Positions 2,104 to 19,752 of a stretch of DNA of 20,222 bases are shown in pieces. The translations under genes and the position numbers were made by a program. Origin of the DNA: an uncultured Porphyromonadaceae bacterium. Lineage in GTDB: Bacteria > Bacteroidota > Bacteroidia > Bacteroidales > Muribaculaceae. The notes under the pieces are model-generated. The model worked only from the letters and a program-made list of their open reading frames with translations, did no database searches and had not been told where the DNA came from. The DNA is taken from NCBI GenBank assembly GCA_900550025.1, contig URQP01000038.1, positions 1 through 20,222 of the forward strand. Direction: 5' to 3'. Position 1 is the stretch's first letter, and the number at the start of each line of letters is the position of its first letter.

Positions 2104-3432
2104 TTATTGCGGGTCGTATTTGCAGTCGATGAGGTCGCCGGCGAAATAGCGGTCGTACGACGCCATGTCTATCAGGCCGTGTCCCGACAGGTTGAACAGG
2201 ATGACAGTCTGCCGTCCCTCCTCCTTGGCACGGTTGGCTTCACGGATGGCAGCCGCTATGGCGTGCGACGATTCCGGCGCCGGGATTATCCCTTCTGTCC
2301 GGGCAAACAGCGTGGCCGCCGCGAATGTCTCAAGCTGTGGAATGTCGACAGCGTCAATCAGTCCGTCATTTTTCAATCGGCTCACTATCGAGCCCGCCCC
2401 ATGGTAGCGCAATCCTCCGGCGTGGATGTTGGCCGGCATGAAGTCGTGTCCAAGCGTCAGCATCGGTATCAATGGTGTATATCCTGCCTCGTCGCCGAAG
2501 TCGTAGCGGAACTCTCCCCTTGTCAGCTTGGGGCATGATTCCGGCTCGGCCGCCACGAAGCGGGTGCTGCGTCCGCCCGACAGGTTATGGCGCAGGAATG
2601 GGAAAGAGATGCCGGAAAAATTGCTCCCGCCGCCGAAACAGCCTATCACCACATCGGGATATTCGCCGGCCATCTCCATCTGCTTCTCTGCTTCGAGGCC
2701 TATCACGGTCTGGTGCAGTGCCACGTGGTTGAGCACGGAGCCGAGGGTGTATTTGCAGTTCGGGGTCGACATCGCCAGTTCCACGGCTTCTGAGATTGCC
2801 GTGCCGAGCGAGCCTTGGCAATTGGGATTGTCGGTTATTATCTTGCGTCCGGCTTTGGTCGACATGCTCGGCGAGGCTATCACTTCCGCGCCGTAGGTCT
2901 GCATGATTGAGCGCCGGTAAGGCTTTTGGTTGTACGACACCTTCACCATATACACGGCCAGTTCCAGTCCGAAATGCCGTGCGGCGAGCGACAACGCCGC
3001 TCCCCACTGCCCGGCTCCGGTCTCTGTGGTTATGTTGGTCACTCCCTGCTTTTTGCAATAGTATGCCTGCGGGATGGCGGAATTGAGCTTGTGTGAGCCT
3101 ACCGGGCTGACACTCTCGTTCTTGAAATAGATGTGTGCCGGTGTGTCGAGCGCTTTTTCCAGTCCGGCGGCGCGGACGAGCGGCGTTGGACGCCATATCT
3201 TGTACATGTCGCGCACTTCTTCCGGAATTTCAATCCAGCGGTCGGCGGTGTTCATCTCCTGCTTTGCGAGTTCCTCGGCAAACAGCGGGTACAGGTCCTC
3301 AGCCTTGAGTTCACGTTTTGTCGCCGGGTCGAGCAGCGGCTGCGGTTTCACCGGCATGTCGGGCAGTATGTTGTACCAAGCTTCCGGTATTTCTTTCTCC
3401 TGCAGCAAGAACTTTTTAGTGTCAGTCTTCAT
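2104..3432 (-). CDS. trpB: TrpB2-type tryptophan synthase beta chain, PLP-dependent
   Basis: A 442-residue fold-type II PLP enzyme of the TrpB2 branch. It condenses indole with L-serine to give L-tryptophan in the cytoplasm. Visible features: PVGSHKLNSA at 110-119 with PLP lysine Lys115; ETGAGQWG at 137-144 with the catalytic Glu137; the phosphate-binding GGGSN at 267-271; and NLSGHG at 414-419. The long N-terminal extension before residue 80 is typical of TrpB2 and absent from TrpB1. The frame stays open to an ATG at 3516, but a promoter at 3463-3495 lies inside that extension, so the ATG at 3432 is preferred; MKTDTKKF also looks like a genuine start. No trpA or other trp gene is adjacent. 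TrpB2 enzymes often work without TrpA, salvaging free indole or as a backup enzyme; that role is inferred. Confidence 0.95.
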   Translation of the reverse strand: MKTDTKKFLLQEKEIPEAWYNILPDMPVKPQPLLDPATKRELKAEDLYPLFAEELAKQEMNTADRWIEIPEEVRDMYKIWRPTPLVRAAGLEKALDTPAHIYFKNESVSPVGSHKLNSAIPQAYYCKKQGVTNITTETGAGQWGAALSLAARHFGLELAVYMVKVSYNQKPYRRSIMQTYGAEVIASPSMSTKAGRKIITDNPNCQGSLGTAISEAVELAMSTPNCKYTLGSVLNHVALHQTVIGLEAEKQMEMAGEYPDVVIGCFGGGSNFSGISFPFLRHNLSGGRSTRFVAAEPESCPKLTRGEFRYDFGDEAGYTPLIPMLTLGHDFMPANIHAGGLRYHGAGSIVSRLKNDGLIDAVDIPQLETFAAATLFARTEGIIPAPESSHAIAAAIREANRAKEEGRQTVILFNLSGHGLIDMASYDRYFAGDLIDCKYDPQ

Positions 3433-3495: not shown

Positions 3496-3581
3496 TAAAT
3501 CTGGAAAAATATTCATTTATATCGATGTCTTGGCTTTTTAGATTATTGTAAAAGCAGCATTCCGATTGTCCCATAATTGGT

Positions 3582-3632
3582 GGGATTGCTGTTATGAAAT
3601 TTTATGCCGCCATATTTTAAGTGGCAAAAGTG
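3582..3632 (+). repeat. 51-bp direct repeat, left copy
   Basis: Begins GGGATTGCTGTTATGAAATT and ends TTTTAAGTGGCAAAAGTG. It differs from 4470-4520 at only two of 51 positions (C/T and A/G). It lies between the divergent promoters of trpB and the zeta module. Confidence 0.95.
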
Positions 3633-3678
3633 TTGCGATTTTCTTTGTGTCGGAAACGGCTTATAGAATAAAATAAAG

Positions 3679-3686
3679 TATATTTG
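3679..3686 (+). promoter_or_regulatory. -7 box of the zeta-module promoter
   Basis: TATATTTG matches TAnnTTTG. Transcription would start near 3693, giving a leader of about 14 bases before the ATG at 3707. No -33 TTTG is seen at the usual spacing. Confidence 0.55.
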
Positions 3687-3706
3687 CATATCGTAATTAT
3701 TGCAAG

Positions 3707-3898
3707 ATGAAATTGAATGAATATCGGCTTGATTCGCAAGAAGAACCTTCAGATGAGTTGTTGGATGAATTGATGGCTCATGTGGCAGAGGATGCGCGAA
3801 AAAGTTTCCATAATGCGGAATTGGAAAAAGATAAACGATTAAAGGATGTTGAGCGGAAAATTAAATCGTTTGAATCTAATAAACGTTCATACTTATGA
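3707..3898 (+). CDS. Small acidic/charged partner protein of zeta-like kinase (putative antitoxin)
   Basis: A 63-residue cytoplasmic protein with no signal peptide, highly charged and predicted almost entirely helical. Residues 16-31 (DELLDELMAHVAEDAR) resemble the conserved helix of small genes that often precede zeta-toxin-like kinases. Residues 40-58 form a Lys/Glu-rich, coiled-coil-like helix. Its stop overlaps the start of the kinase gene by four bases (ATGA), which points to translational coupling and a two-gene operon. It is inferred to be the antitoxin or partner from position, size and charge. It is not recognisably epsilon or PezA, and no DNA-binding motif is visible. Base composition is much more AT-rich than trpB or gdhA on either side, as in the kinase gene, which suggests joint horizontal acquisition. 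Confidence 0.7.
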   Translation: MKLNEYRLDSQEEPSDELLDELMAHVAEDARKSFHNAELEKDKRLKDVERKIKSFESNKRSYL

Positions 3899-4485
3899 TT
3901 GTTAAAAGGCCTGTCTTGTGTGTCGTTGCCGGACCAAATGGCTCTGGCAAAACATCCACGACTATACAATTGTTGCATTACGAATGGGGAAAGGACTGTG
4001 TTTATATCAATCCTGATGATATTGCTCAAGAAAGATTTGGTGGATGGAATTCTGCCGAAGCGGTGCTGAAGGCGGCGCAATATGCAACAGAATTAAGGTA
4101 TAAATGTTTGGCTGATAAATGTAATTTTGTGTTTGAAACGGTATTCTCTTCTGTTGAAAAACTTGACTTTATAAAACGAGCTAAGAACTCAGGATTTTTT
4201 ATACGTTTTTTTTATATCTGCACGTCAGATCCGATAATCAATGTTAACCGCATAGCGCAACGCTATCTTAATGGAGGTCATGAAGTTCCTATATCAAAAA
4301 TAATATCCCGCTATTATAAATCATTGGAAAATGCGCACGAGGCAGTGCGGATTGTCGACCGTGCTTATATTTATGACAATTCAGTGGACAATCAAGTGCC
4401 TAAATTGTTGTTTAGAACTGTTGATGGAGCTTTGCAAAAACGTTATACGGACAGAATTCCCGAGTGGGCGGGATTGCTGTTATGA
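3895..4485 (+). CDS. Zeta-toxin-like P-loop kinase
   Basis: A 196-residue P-loop NTPase of the zeta toxin family. Seen: Walker A GPNGSGKT at 13-20; INPDDIA at 39-45, the Asp-rich segment expected to bind or activate the substrate; FETVFS at 80-85; and the family signature around 118-141 (NRIAQRYLNGGHEVP, then ISRYYKSLENA) with the Arg residues expected to contact ATP. Known zeta toxins phosphorylate UDP-N-acetylglucosamine and block peptidoglycan precursor synthesis. Chromosomal homologues may act on other substrates, so the target here is unknown. Length is near that of minimal zeta proteins. It overlaps the partner gene by four bases. The last five codons and stop lie inside the right 51-bp direct repeat, so the gene end and the repeat are fused. 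The AT-rich composition contrasts with its neighbours. Confidence 0.85.
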   Translation: MIVKRPVLCVVAGPNGSGKTSTTIQLLHYEWGKDCVYINPDDIAQERFGGWNSAEAVLKAAQYATELRYKCLADKCNFVFETVFSSVEKLDFIKRAKNSGFFIRFFYICTSDPIINVNRIAQRYLNGGHEVPISKIISRYYKSLENAHEAVRIVDRAYIYDNSVDNQVPKLLFRTVDGALQKRYTDRIPEWAGLLL

Positions 4486-4520
4486 AATTTTATGCCGCTA
4501 TGTTTTAAGTGGCAAAAGTG
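4470..4520 (+). repeat. 51-bp direct repeat, right copy
   Basis: Matches 3582-3632 at 49 of 51 positions in the same orientation. It contains the last five codons and the stop of the zeta-like gene and ends before the gdhA promoter. The two copies are 888 bases apart and bracket the module precisely. Confidence 0.95.
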
Positions 4521-4574
4521 CGGCGGAATGTGGTGTTTTTGTGCGATTGTGTAGCTTAAAACGGAAATTTTCTT

Positions 4575-4582
4575 TACTTTTG
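4575..4582 (+). promoter_or_regulatory. -7 box of the gdhA promoter
   Basis: TACTTTTG fits TAnnTTTG. A TTG at 4547-4549 is a possible -33 element, but the 25-base gap is long. Transcription would start near 4589, giving a leader of about 26 bases. It lies outside the direct repeat, so gdhA keeps its promoter with or without the zeta module. Confidence 0.6.
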
Positions 4583-4614
4583 CACGGAAAACGACAACTA
4601 AACATTACATTTGA

Positions 4615-5949
4615 ATGAAAGCTACTGAAGTTATCGACGATTTGCGCCGCAGGTTTCCGCACGAGCCGGAATACTTGCAGGCTGTGGAAGAAGTGGTTAC
4701 CTCGATTGAGGAAGTCTACAATCAGCATCCCGAGTTTGAACGCTACAATCTGATAGAGCGTCTGTGCATCCCCGACCGCATATTCTCGTTCCGTGTGTCG
4801 TGGGTCGACGATAAGGGGCGCGTGCAGAACAATATGGGCTACCGTGTGCAGCACAACAATGCCATCGGCCCTTATAAAGGCGGTATCCGTTTCCATTCCT
4901 CGGTCAACCAGTCGATTCTGAAATTCCTCGCTTTCGAGCAGACTTTCAAGAATTCGCTTACCACGCTGCCGATGGGCGGCGGCAAAGGAGGGTCGGATTT
5001 CAATCCTAAGGGAAAGTCGGATATGGAGATTATGCACTTCTGTCAGGCTTTTGTCTCGGAATTGTGGAGGCACATAGGCCCGGACACCGACGTGCCGGCT
5101 GGCGACATCGGCGTAGGCGGTCGCGAAGTGGGCTATATGTATGGCGCCTATAAAAAGATGGCGCGCGAGAACACCGGTACATTCACCGGAAAGGGTATGG
5201 AGTTCGGCGGCTCGTTGATACGCCCGGAGGCCACCGGTTACGGTAATGTGTATTTCCTGCTCAATATGCTTGCCACACGCGGCATCGGCATCGAAGGCAA
5301 GACCGTAGCTATTTCCGGTTCGGGCAATGTGGCGACATACACGGCCGACAAGTTGTTGCAGCTCGGCGCTAAAGTGGTAACGATGAGCGATTCCGACGGC
5401 ACTATCTATGTGCCTGAAGGACTTACGCGGGAGCAGCTGGATTTCATATTCGAGTTGAAGAACCTTTACAGGGGCAGGATACGTGAGTTCGCCGAAAAAT
5501 ACGGTTGCCAATACTTCGAAGGCGGCCGTCCGTGGGGCGTGAAATGCGACATTGCGATGCCGTCGGCCACTCAGAACGAGCTCGACGGCGACGATGCCCG
5601 CGCGCTGCTGGCCAACGGTTGCTTTGCCGTGTCGGAAGGGGCGAACATGCCGTCAACTCCGGAGGCCGTCCACGAATTTGTCAAGGCTAAGATTCTCTAT
5701 GCTCCGGGAAAGGCCGCAAATGCCGGAGGGGTGTCTGTTTCCGGGTTGGAAATGGCGCAGAATTCGCAGAAACTCACGTGGACAGCCGAAGAAGTGGATG
5801 CGAAACTGAAAGATATTATGGCCGGAATCCACAGCCAGTGTTGCCGTTACGGCACTGAACCCGACGGCTACGTGAACTACGTGAAAGGCGCCAATATCGC
5901 CGGCTTTATGAAAGTGGCGAAAGCGATGATGGCGCAAGGCGTATTATAG
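4615..5949 (+). CDS. gdhA: Glutamate dehydrogenase (hexameric, probably NADP-dependent)
   Basis: A 444-residue cytoplasmic enzyme that interconverts 2-oxoglutarate plus ammonia and glutamate, a main route of ammonia assimilation in gut Bacteroidales. The N-terminal domain carries the substrate site: GPYKGGIRFH at 85-94 (Lys88), Lys112, LPMGGGKGGSDF at 118-129 (catalytic Lys124) and PAGDIGVGGRE at 161-171 (Asp164). RPEATGYG is at 203-210. The dinucleotide domain begins near 229 with ISGSGNVA at 233-240, and SDSDGTIY at 258-265 follows the second strand. Length is typical of the roughly 445-residue bacterial family. NADP preference is inferred from similarity to the small hexameric biosynthetic class. 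The ATG at 4615 has the expected MKATEVID-type helical start. It is transcribed alone. Confidence 0.97.
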   Translation: MKATEVIDDLRRRFPHEPEYLQAVEEVVTSIEEVYNQHPEFERYNLIERLCIPDRIFSFRVSWVDDKGRVQNNMGYRVQHNNAIGPYKGGIRFHSSVNQSILKFLAFEQTFKNSLTTLPMGGGKGGSDFNPKGKSDMEIMHFCQAFVSELWRHIGPDTDVPAGDIGVGGREVGYMYGAYKKMARENTGTFTGKGMEFGGSLIRPEATGYGNVYFLLNMLATRGIGIEGKTVAISGSGNVATYTADKLLQLGAKVVTMSDSDGTIYVPEGLTREQLDFIFELKNLYRGRIREFAEKYGCQYFEGGRPWGVKCDIAMPSATQNELDGDDARALLANGCFAVSEGANMPSTPEAVHEFVKAKILYAPGKAANAGGVSVSGLEMAQNSQKLTWTAEEVDAKLKDIMAGIHSQCCRYGTEPDGYVNYVKGANIAGFMKVAKAMMAQGVL

Positions 5950-15343: not shown

Positions 15344-15410
15344 CCATAACCCATAACCCCATAACCTCTAGCCTGCGGCTTCAGCCGCAACGACCTGCCG
15401 CCACGGCGGC
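15344..15410 (-). repeat. Repeat family D overlapping the portal stop codon
   Basis: Read on the minus strand: hairpin GCCGCCGTGGCGGC (15410-15397), spacer, hairpin TGCGGCTGAAGCCGCA (15389-15374), then AGGTTATGGGGTTATGGGTT-type heptads (to 15344). The order matches the copies at 1309 and 14958, oriented with the portal gene, whose last codons and stop lie inside the hairpins. Confidence 0.75.
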
Positions 15411-16718
15411 TTTTATCTTCTCGTCGCGCTGGAAGCGGAAAGAATTGAACGATTCGAGTATGTCGCTGATGGCGATGGTGGCGTTGCGCACTTGGCTCTC
15501 GTAGAGTTGCAGTCCGGTCGACGCGCTTACCCCTTGCCCCTGCAGCACGCCCGACACTCCGGAAATCTGCTCGAACAGCTTCATTTGTAGGTTGAGCATC
15601 TCGTATGCCCCGATATTGGTGGCGTTTGCCGATACCTGTTGCGGACGGTCGGACGAGTTGGCGCGCGGATGGTAGGGGATTACAGCGTCGGGTTGTGCCC
15701 ACGCTTGGCGCAATTCGTCCCACGTGAAGCCTTCCGGCAGCAGATTGTCGGGGAAAAGCAGCACCCCTTTCGCGCTCGTGTCCATTATGTGGTCGACGAG
15801 CGTAATCAGCCGGTTTACGTATTTCTGCTGGTCAATCACGTCCTCCACGAGAGAGTGAACCTCGCCGTCGATGAGAGGGTAGAGCTTGAAGGCGAACGGA
15901 TGTGTGCCGCCGGGATACGGCGAGTCGTACTGGCTGACTATGTTGCCCTGTGGCGAGATCCAGCGGCATCGCCATGTCCGTAGCAGTGTCCAGCGTTTCT
16001 CCACATCGCCGCCTATACCGTTCTCCCGGCCGCGGCGCACTATGAACCAGCGTCCTGCCGTGCGGTCGTGGCATTCGTAGTATTCCCGGCTTTCGAGCGA
16101 CCAGATTTCCGCTATCCGCAATTTCTCGGTGTCGTCGCAGCCATAGAACCCCGAATGCCCGAAACTTTCCGCCGTGCCGTATTCCCGGCATATCTCTACG
16201 GCCTTCTGCCTGTCGTTGCGGGCGAACCGGCCGATTAATTCTTCCGGTGTCATGTCGTGGAGCTGGCCTATCATATGGCAGTCGCGGCCGAGCGGGTCCG
16301 ACATTTCGCTGTAGAACATCTTCGCCGGATTGACATTGCTCAGGCTTCCGTCGCTGCCTATCCTTTGGAAGCAGCAGCCGGAGATGAGGAATTCCTCCAA
16401 AGCCCGGCAGTCGAGCTCGTTGCGCGCATAGTCGCCGTCTTCTCCGGCGATGCTCTCGCGGAAACGTCCTATCACGCTTTTCACCAACTGGCGTATCAGG
16501 TTGTTGGTGAGCGGCTCCTTTCCCTTGTTCTTCAGCGCGCTGTATTCGGATAAGGCTTTGCCGGAACTTTCGGTCACGATGTCGCACCATTGGTTGCCGT
16601 AGGTATAGTTCTTGTTGCGCTCGCGTTTCTCCCTTAGCGGTGCCGTGCGCCGCCATGCGCGTTCCGCCGCGGCGAGGTATGCCGAGCCGTCGCGGCTTTT
16701 TTCGTTGTGTGTTTCCAT
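15381..16718 (-). CDS. Orphan P22-type phage portal-like protein
   Basis: 445 residues, no signal peptide or membrane segment. Several segments resemble P22-type portal proteins: YTYGNQWCD at 38-46; PLTNNLIRQLVKSVIGRFR at 69-87 (the helical stretch after the conserved Asn); HPFAFKLYPLIDGEVHSLVED at 273-293; VIDQQKYVNRLITLVDHIMDT at 294-314; and ISGVSGVLQGQGVSASTG, then LQLYESQVRNATIAISD (385-419). Portal proteins form the dodecameric DNA channel of a tailed-phage head and bind the terminase. No terminase, capsid, tail or integrase gene is near: the flanking genes are an outer-membrane protein and a highly expressed lipoprotein. It is shorter than P22 portal (about 725 residues), lacking the C-terminal barrel region, and its last residues come from a repeat D hairpin. 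Base composition is like the host genes. It may be a domesticated or relic gene; the portal call is by motif reading only. Confidence 0.7.
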   Translation of the reverse strand: METHNEKSRDGSAYLAAAERAWRRTAPLREKRERNKNYTYGNQWCDIVTESSGKALSEYSALKNKGKEPLTNNLIRQLVKSVIGRFRESIAGEDGDYARNELDCRALEEFLISGCCFQRIGSDGSLSNVNPAKMFYSEMSDPLGRDCHMIGQLHDMTPEELIGRFARNDRQKAVEICREYGTAESFGHSGFYGCDDTEKLRIAEIWSLESREYYECHDRTAGRWFIVRRGRENGIGGDVEKRWTLLRTWRCRWISPQGNIVSQYDSPYPGGTHPFAFKLYPLIDGEVHSLVEDVIDQQKYVNRLITLVDHIMDTSAKGVLLFPDNLLPEGFTWDELRQAWAQPDAVIPYHPRANSSDRPQQVSANATNIGAYEMLNLQMKLFEQISGVSGVLQGQGVSASTGLQLYESQVRNATIAISDILESFNSFRFQRDEKIKAAVAAGRCG

Positions 16719-18964: not shown

Positions 18965-19001
18965 AAACCCAATCACTGCGGAGCAGTGAAGCCGGCATGG
19001 A

Positions 19002-19107
19002 GTTGAAGCCACGGAGTGGCGATACTTCATAGAACCCCACGCAAGCGTAGCGCGGCTTGGGGTATAGGTCGCCGCCCCTCTCCATCGGCCGCATCGCGGT
19101 CGCACTC
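19002..19107 (+). repeat. Repeat family C, long copy left of the PH gene
   Basis: 106 bases starting GTTGAAGCCACGGAGTGGCG, with the GCAAGCGTAGCGCGGCTTGG core and ending CGGCCGCATCGCGGTCGCAC plus TC. It matches 19647-19752 at 101 of 106 positions without gaps, in the same orientation. Confidence 0.95.
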
Positions 19108-19162: not shown

Positions 19163-19594
19163 ATGGAGAAGGTAGTGTATAAATCGAAAGTCGACGCTTG
19201 GCTGGTGATAGTGGTCGTGGCCGCTGTCGCGGTTGTCTTGTTGCCATTGTTCTCTGGTTTCTCGTGGGACTATCTGCTGGCGGCGTCGGGAGTGCTTGTG
19301 TGCCTTGTGCCTGTCTTTGCCCTGTTGTTCAGTATCCGTTATATCGTTGAAGGCGACAAGCTGACAGTCAGTTGCGGCATTCTTGGCAGCACTGCATACG
19401 ACATTATGTCGGTGCGTTCCATACGTCCCACCCGCACTTGGCTTTCATCGCCGGCCGCGTCGCTCGACCGCATTGAGCTGCGCTTCTCCGTCCGCCGTGT
19501 GCAGCCGCTCATAATCTCCCCGGAGGACAAGACCGGGTTCATTGCCCGCCTCAAATCAATTAATCCCGCCATCGAAATCCTCCCAGCCCGCTGA
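19163..19594 (+). CDS. Small membrane protein with a bacterial PH domain
   Basis: 143 residues. Two membrane segments at about 13-33 and 38-59 are separated by a very short turn, so both termini are probably cytoplasmic. Residues 62-140 match the small bacterial PH domain (bPH_4 type) found after two-helix anchors: YIVEGDKLTVSCGILGS, then YDIMSVRSIRPTRTWLSSP, RIELRFS, PLIISPEDKTGFIARLKSINP. The function of this family is not established; a membrane-associated scaffold is the usual guess. It has its own promoter. It lies between two 106-bp family C repeats in direct orientation (19002-19107 and 19647-19752). No partner gene is seen. Confidence 0.85.
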   Translation: MEKVVYKSKVDAWLVIVVVAAVAVVLLPLFSGFSWDYLLAASGVLVCLVPVFALLFSIRYIVEGDKLTVSCGILGSTAYDIMSVRSIRPTRTWLSSPAASLDRIELRFSVRRVQPLIISPEDKTGFIARLKSINPAIEILPAR

Positions 19595-19646
19595 CCCCGC
19601 AATACATGCCTGTTGAAATGATTTTGTTCCGTGAAAGCTGTATGAG

Positions 19647-19752
19647 GTTGAAGCCACGGAGTGGCGATACTTCATATAACCCCATGCAAGCGTAGCGCGG
19701 CTTGGGGTATAGGCTGCCGCCCCTCTCCATCGGCCGCATAGCGGTCGCACTC
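19647..19752 (+). repeat. Repeat family C, long copy right of the PH gene
   Basis: Direct repeat of 19002-19107, with five substitutions and no gaps over 106 bases. The two copies flank the PH-domain gene at a distance of 645 bases start to start. Confidence 0.95.

Follow-up and report, generated by a model that had tools for sequence, protein, structure and literature searches.

How small toxin-antitoxin (TA) gene pairs spread without a visible transposon, integrase or plasmid carrier is an open question, and the stretch of DNA analyzed here (20,222 nucleotides, hereafter the window) poses it in compact form. Between a TrpB-like gene and gdhA of a Bacteroidales bacterium lies an A+T-rich gene pair bracketed by a long direct repeat that takes in the end of the second gene. 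By what kind of event did this cassette come to lie there, and why does the repeat copy on its far side also begin like the end of the toxin gene? Nobusato et al. reportedly described, in 2000, insertion with long target duplication (ILTD) of restriction-modification genes in Helicobacter pylori. Our analyses suggest that the cassette belongs to a family occupying many unrelated sites, that at some of these it arrived by ILTD, and that the window site works in a similar manner, a reading to which we assign a probability of roughly 0.55.

The cassette and its neighborhood

An AT-rich two-gene module between trpB and gdhA had been predicted from the sequence, and both ORFs are indeed in place (Table 1), with a G+C content of 37–38% across 3501–4500 (measured in 500-bp windows) and mostly 48–61% in the rest of the window. 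The two ORFs overlap as ATGA. In the region upstream of them, TATATTTG (at about 3679–3686) resembles the consensus of the Bacteroidetes -7 promoter element.

Table 1 Features of the cassette and its flanks in the window.
Feature	Position	Strand	Basis or remark
TrpB-like PLP-dependent enzyme, left neighbor	2104–3432	-	Pfam PALP E 6e-44; 81% nucleotide identity to G446
Left repeat copy	3579–3637	+	Opening ~19 nt identical to the toxin 3' end save one base; rest gdhA-leader-like
Cassette upstream region	3638–3706	+	Sequence
Antitoxin-like ORF, 63 aa (P0001)	3707–3898	+	Five relatives have like-placed small ORFs
Zeta/PezT-type kinase (putative toxin), 196 aa	3895–4485	+	Pfam PF06414 E 1.7e-13; AlphaFold model
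Right repeat copy	4467–4525	+	Contains the toxin's final five codons and stop
gdhA proximal leader	4526–4614	+	G446 intergenic local score 72.5, 0/1000 shuffles
gdhA, glutamate dehydrogenase, right neighbor	4615–5949	+	Pfam E 7.5e-88; 83% nucleotide identity to G446

The second gene encodes a kinase that scores 50.9 bits against the Pfam Zeta_toxin profile (gathering cut-off 22.3) and has the Walker A motif GPNGSGKT. PDB sequences gave no match to it at E 0.01. Its AlphaFold model (pLDDT 89.1) had 89 PDB structure matches at E ≤ 0.001, led by PezT (2p5t_B; E 3.1e-8, TM 0.62 by query length) and also including other P-loop kinases (AvrRxo1, adenylate and polynucleotide kinases). The predicted fold is thus that of zeta/PezT proteins. 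Zeta toxins are UDP-GlcNAc kinases, according to one study (PMC3062530). A protein search with the toxin scored 7999 candidates, of which 7794 reached E ≤ 0.001.

Residues Y6, R7, P14, D16, E17 and M23 of the 63-aa product of the first gene are common to the like-placed small ORFs of five relatives. This protein had no Pfam match above cut-off (one below, HBM, E 0.049) and none in NCBIfam, PADLOC or PHROGs, and no epsilon- or PezA-type antitoxin was recognized in it with these four libraries. As in epsilon/zeta and PezAT, a P-loop kinase toxin with a Zeta_toxin domain and a predicted PezT-like fold is accompanied by a small upstream gene; unlike in those systems, the kinase is only 196 aa long (versus 240–272 residues in the matched PDB zeta/PezT chains) and the antitoxin-like protein could not be assigned to any antitoxin family described in those libraries. 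The two proteins would form a putative TA pair.

Outside the cassette, the window contains a P22-like phage portal protein gene (15384–16718, minus strand; Pfam E 4.6e-17, PHROG portal E 4.3e-34); the other nine window ORFs tested are not phage genes. A perfect 23-bp tandem repeat (2.6 copies) occupies 1917–1976, and a 122-nt direct repeat (91%; 18986–19107 and 19631–19752) surrounds a 143-aa ORF at 19163–19594, with similar pieces recurring elsewhere in the window.

A composite repeat

A repeat search of the window returned the pair in a longest form of 59 nt (92% identity, spacing 888). By direct count, the copies differ at 2 of 51 positions (3582–3632 versus 4470–4520), which agrees with the 49 of 51 matches originally predicted, at 3 of 54 (3579–3632 versus 4467–4520) and at 5 of 59 in the longest form. 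The repeat has a local score of 93; the best of 100 dinucleotide shuffles reached 33. Divergence is not even along the copies: 3 mismatches in 54 positions are followed by 5 in the next 9 (p 8e-4), a jump that suggests exchange between the two copies. The suggestion, made alongside the original prediction, that the repeat is the scar of a recombination has some merit, since it looks like a recombination footprint. The right copy was also said to hold the last five toxin codons and stop, which is correct for the 54-nt form (A-G-L-L-L plus stop); the 51-bp core contains the stop and the last four whole codons.

What the repeat is made of bears directly on its origin. In the family alignment, A-G-L-L-L is typical of the toxin end (e.g., WAGLLLKQTH in P0010 and WAGLLLGIQM in P0066), and no five-codon stretch in the rest of the window fits the family tail profile equally well (0/32,270). 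The cassette is therefore the most likely source of the block's first 19 nt, in both copies. The remainder resembles the gdhA leader of some relatives, so that the block is composite and the repeat at this site does not consist of target DNA alone. Our initial main reading, in which a clean target duplication supplied the toxin tail, was dropped when the family alignment showed the tail to be native. A further candidate, a longer decayed second zeta gene of which the left copy would be part, was likewise rejected, as toxin similarity stops at the block edge and no significant similarity was found left of the repeat.

Both copies carry an identical sigma-70-like match (10/12) on the minus strand, at 3599–3627 and 4487–4515; such sites number 8 in the region, against 5.2 expected.

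The trpB–gdhA site in relatives

The original prediction had proposed aligning the trpB–gdhA gap across related genomes. The genus of G026 gave no instance of the two genes side by side in the 14 genomes examined, and at locus L104 they lie close together in a different order. A same-genus relative (L118, in G465) keeps trpB and the downstream amidase with about 110 bp between the matches, and has no gdhA match at E ≤ 1e-100. The window order is found in a diverged genome, G446 (81–83% identity in the genes), where 115 bp, versus 1058 in the window, separate the trpB-side and gdhA-side matches. This gap contains no cassette, and G446, apparently one of the 297 genomes searched (see below), does not belong to the 79 whose toxin match reaches E ≤ 1e-40.

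The G446 gap holds a single, diverged match to the repeat block. A model of the empty site aligned to it with a score of 174.5 when built with the left copy, 170.5 with the right copy and 164.5 with neither. Shuffled blocks reached the observed score in 1 of 2000 trials for the left copy and 11 of 2000 for the right, and the left-copy score was reached by none of 100 module pieces and none of 544 window pieces. The toxin-tail part alone (the first 22 nt of the repeat) was matched by 25 of 2000 shuffles against this diverged sequence, and no significant zeta relic lies further left in G446. We also compared the left copy with eleven further gdhA leaders. Two matched (L102, 0/1000; L119, 8/1000), with the similarity at L102 continuing beyond the repeat to about 3645, and the other nine did not (87–654/1000); a piece of the toxin, used as a negative control against the L119 leader, gave 27/1000. 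Mainly on the strength of the G446 and L102 matches, we regard host gdhA leader as the probable source of the block's 3' part.

A cassette family at many sites

Among 297 genomes taken from the family of G026, 79 contain a relative of the toxin at E ≤ 1e-40. The 88 loci reduced to 79 distinct ones once duplicates were removed, and 4 of these were too short, leaving 75 testable loci including the window. Loci with fewer than 150 aligned residues were excluded, as were six partial toxin matches (in G489, G593, G559, G623, G526 and G662). Clustered by DNA, the flanks form 40 upstream clusters (74 loci) and 59 downstream clusters (75 loci), indicating that the cassette sits in many places, though divergence alone also splits clusters. 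Together with the cassette-free G446 gap, this variety of neighborhoods fits the earlier view that the cassette is movable.

Strong flanking repeats were found at 9 of the 75 testable loci (the window counted), with scores of 64–198 against shuffle maxima of 24–33. The best score below these nine was 36; six loci (L126, L130, L001, L134, L175 and L151) scored 28–36, slightly above their own shuffle maximum, and were not counted as positive. Among control ORFs, 4 of 225 reached a score of 60, or 2 of 223 after L180 and L182 were dropped as second fetches of zeta loci; one of these two is the 143-aa ORF noted above. The difference between zeta loci and control ORFs is significant (Fisher p 9.6e-5, or 0.003 if the four dnaK-side loci described below count once), and the only random intervals to reach 60 (2 of 403) both fell within L182. 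No strong flanking repeat was found at the other 66 testable loci, where the repeats may have decayed or the cassette may have arrived by another route. Seven positive loci, the window among them (L167 and L135 excluded), showed no homology upstream of their repeats: the best value was 25/1000, at L166, and that of the window 50/1000.

Some of the positive loci fit poorly with target duplication. L131, L140, L164 and L135 each lie downstream of a dnaK-like gene and belong to a 21-locus upstream-flank cluster (dnaK was checked in these four); their right neighbors differ. At L140 the right side comprises an AAA-ATPase-like gene and a second gene, which may be a defense pair. At L131 the antitoxin-like start codons lie inside the right repeat copy, and at L135 a 149-aa gene and a zeta fragment are both repeated; these two loci look like tandem duplications. 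L078 follows a tRNA-like stretch, and a relative, G579, has a cassette at the same tRNA with no repeat detected. In G407 (L166) the repeat is a terminator-like hairpin between secDF-like and Sir2-like genes (named from translations). The genus of G407 is represented by one genome; among 79 relatives some (G422, G443 and G441) carry both the secDF and the Sir2-like gene on a single contig, no more than a few kb apart, and no empty counterpart of this site was established.

Possible carriers were sought among mobile elements. Plasmids contained no DNA match to the cassette, and the 516 records found by tblastn were all below 60% identity. Four phage records have a toxin relative, one of them at 65.8% identity that looks chromosomal; viral_contigs contained none. 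That 65.8% relative (L177, MT836462.1, labelled Bacteriophage sp.) is a zeta gene amid what translations suggest are bacterial housekeeping genes.

Cassette-free relatives at two further sites

At two other sites the repeat can be compared with relatives that have no cassette. The G419 repeat measures about 74 bp (by eye) and is present in G686 as a single copy without a cassette; the left flanks of the two genomes are 94.5% identical, and the G686 stretch examined contains no toxin. The left copy in G419 is split by a 70-bp dispersed element (about 3930–4000 of L165), which occurs in both orientations in genomes of the same genus. In G783, G741 and G743 the block likewise occurs a single time, next to the right-hand genes, and the stretches examined contain no toxin, while G664 matches only the left flank of G419 within its examined stretch.

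In G512 the block spans at least 74 bp; a ROK glucokinase gene has its 3' end in it, and it also includes a terminator-like palindrome. G314 (86–87% identity to G512) has one copy of the block and no cassette there; a partial toxin-region match lies on another of its contigs. The left copy in G512 begins at a contig edge, and we take it to be a real second copy because 4 of its 74 positions do not match the right copy. The host copy starts about 2 bases past the toxin stop in G512 and 8–20 bases past it in G419. The repeats of G407, G419, G454 and G512 were not seen elsewhere in their own genomes (candidates scored 40/60, 4/60, 11/24 and 25/43). At the G419/G686 and G512/G314 sites the repeat is host target DNA, and target duplication is well supported.

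Origin of the window repeat

For the window, we propose a history in which a self-contained cassette, consisting of an antitoxin and a zeta kinase, would insert without site specificity and duplicate tens of target bases, the gdhA leader being the duplicated host part. Because the left copy contains the last codons of the toxin, the right junction would also have been copied or exchanged to the left. Most probably this would have come about through entry at a site that held a 3' relic of an earlier cassette, or through an exchange between the copies after insertion. Addiction, that is, harm to cells that lose the cassette, would then hold it in place. Since the repeat is not target DNA alone, we do not class the window as a clean case of ILTD; a clean ILTD would not place toxin codons in the left copy.

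The opposite position, that the event here was a clean ILTD, would make the whole block old gdhA-leader DNA and let the toxin end in codons borrowed from the target. Under it, the window would be laid out like the G419 and G512 sites, and it draws on the match of G446 to the left copy, tail included. We consider it improbable, given that the toxins of relatives have A-G-L-L-L at the corresponding position as well, with no chance fit in the rest of the window, and that at G419 and G512 the host copy begins after the stop codon. Less strained, but still in our view unlikely, is a tandem duplication followed by loss, in which the cassette and part of the gdhA leader were duplicated head to tail and the first copy was deleted down to its last codons. 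Such a history accounts for a left copy that opens with family-typical toxin codons and is followed by the cassette upstream region, and events of this type seem to occur in the family (L135 and L131). It needs two events, however, one of them a deletion whose end falls no more than six codons from the toxin stop, and it must contend with the lack of significant toxin similarity left of the repeat and with the G446 gap, which aligns in order with both the left copy and the left flank.

The original prediction named an attL/attR pair with the gene end inside the core as one possibility. In such a site-specific integration the recombinase would act in trans. The geometry fits, as a near-identical block stands at each end and one block contains a gene end. 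The block itself had no match beyond 14–17 nt in L001–L092, which include 33 other zeta loci (L001–L003 and L063–L092), so that the proposed search for the 51-bp motif beside other zeta-like genes came up empty at these 33; viral_contigs contained no exact copy of its 28-base core. The repeats at the other positive loci resemble neither the window block nor one another (in pairwise comparison of the repeats of 11 loci, no pair scored above 22). Pfam found no recombinase among the ten window ORFs, nine of which have families and one no match. The block folds no better than its shuffles (z -0.5 to -1.3), unlike an integron attC, and the idea that the repeat forms a structured RNA or folds like attC was dropped; Rfam had no match in the window. 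A shared att core is thus not supported, and we regard site-specific integration as very improbable. Integron and pdif cassettes are also small TA cassettes between repeated sites; the present family departs from them in having no core shared between sites, no fold better than chance and no recombinase in the tested ORFs.

Chance similarity or an assembly error is scarcely credible. The window may come from a metagenome assembly, but the score of the repeat far exceeds the shuffle maximum, the five differences between its copies are unlike a copied assembly repeat, and a toxin 99% identical to this one (P0002, 20 member sequences) is known from other sources. Insertion with target duplication, complicated by a copied or exchanged junction, remains our preferred account of the window.

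Implications for the spread of toxin-antitoxin pairs

ILTD is described for restriction-modification genes of H. pylori (PMC1643837 and PMC3874152), with duplications that are long and variable, on the order of 100 bp (PMC3874152). It has several traits in common with the zeta family: an addiction-type gene pair, no known transposase, long and locus-specific direct repeats of the target and, at two sites of the zeta family, one repeat copy in a relative that has no cassette. The differences are that the cargo here is a zeta-kinase TA-like pair of Bacteroidales, and that the window repeat is partly the toxin gene's own end. No title in the literature listed by our search concerned TA insertion with long target duplication.

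At the two sites above, the presence or absence of the cassette in related genomes goes together with a single long duplication of the target, which is a direct footprint of the event, and such pairs of genomes make the question of TA spread testable. A broader view, which we offer tentatively, is that zeta-type TA pairs of gut Bacteroidales may themselves be mobile units, each extending from the promoter through the antitoxin to about the stop codon of the toxin and encoding no enzyme for its own movement. They would insert into gene ends, terminators and leaders and duplicate tens of target bases, and the repeats would decay with time. Addiction would hold the pairs in place, while the flanking copies would allow clean loss by homologous recombination. 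Our data suggest that a mode of insertion used by the restriction-modification genes of H. pylori may serve TA genes in a different phylum. If this is true, one process would explain the scattered spread of both restriction-modification and TA pairs.
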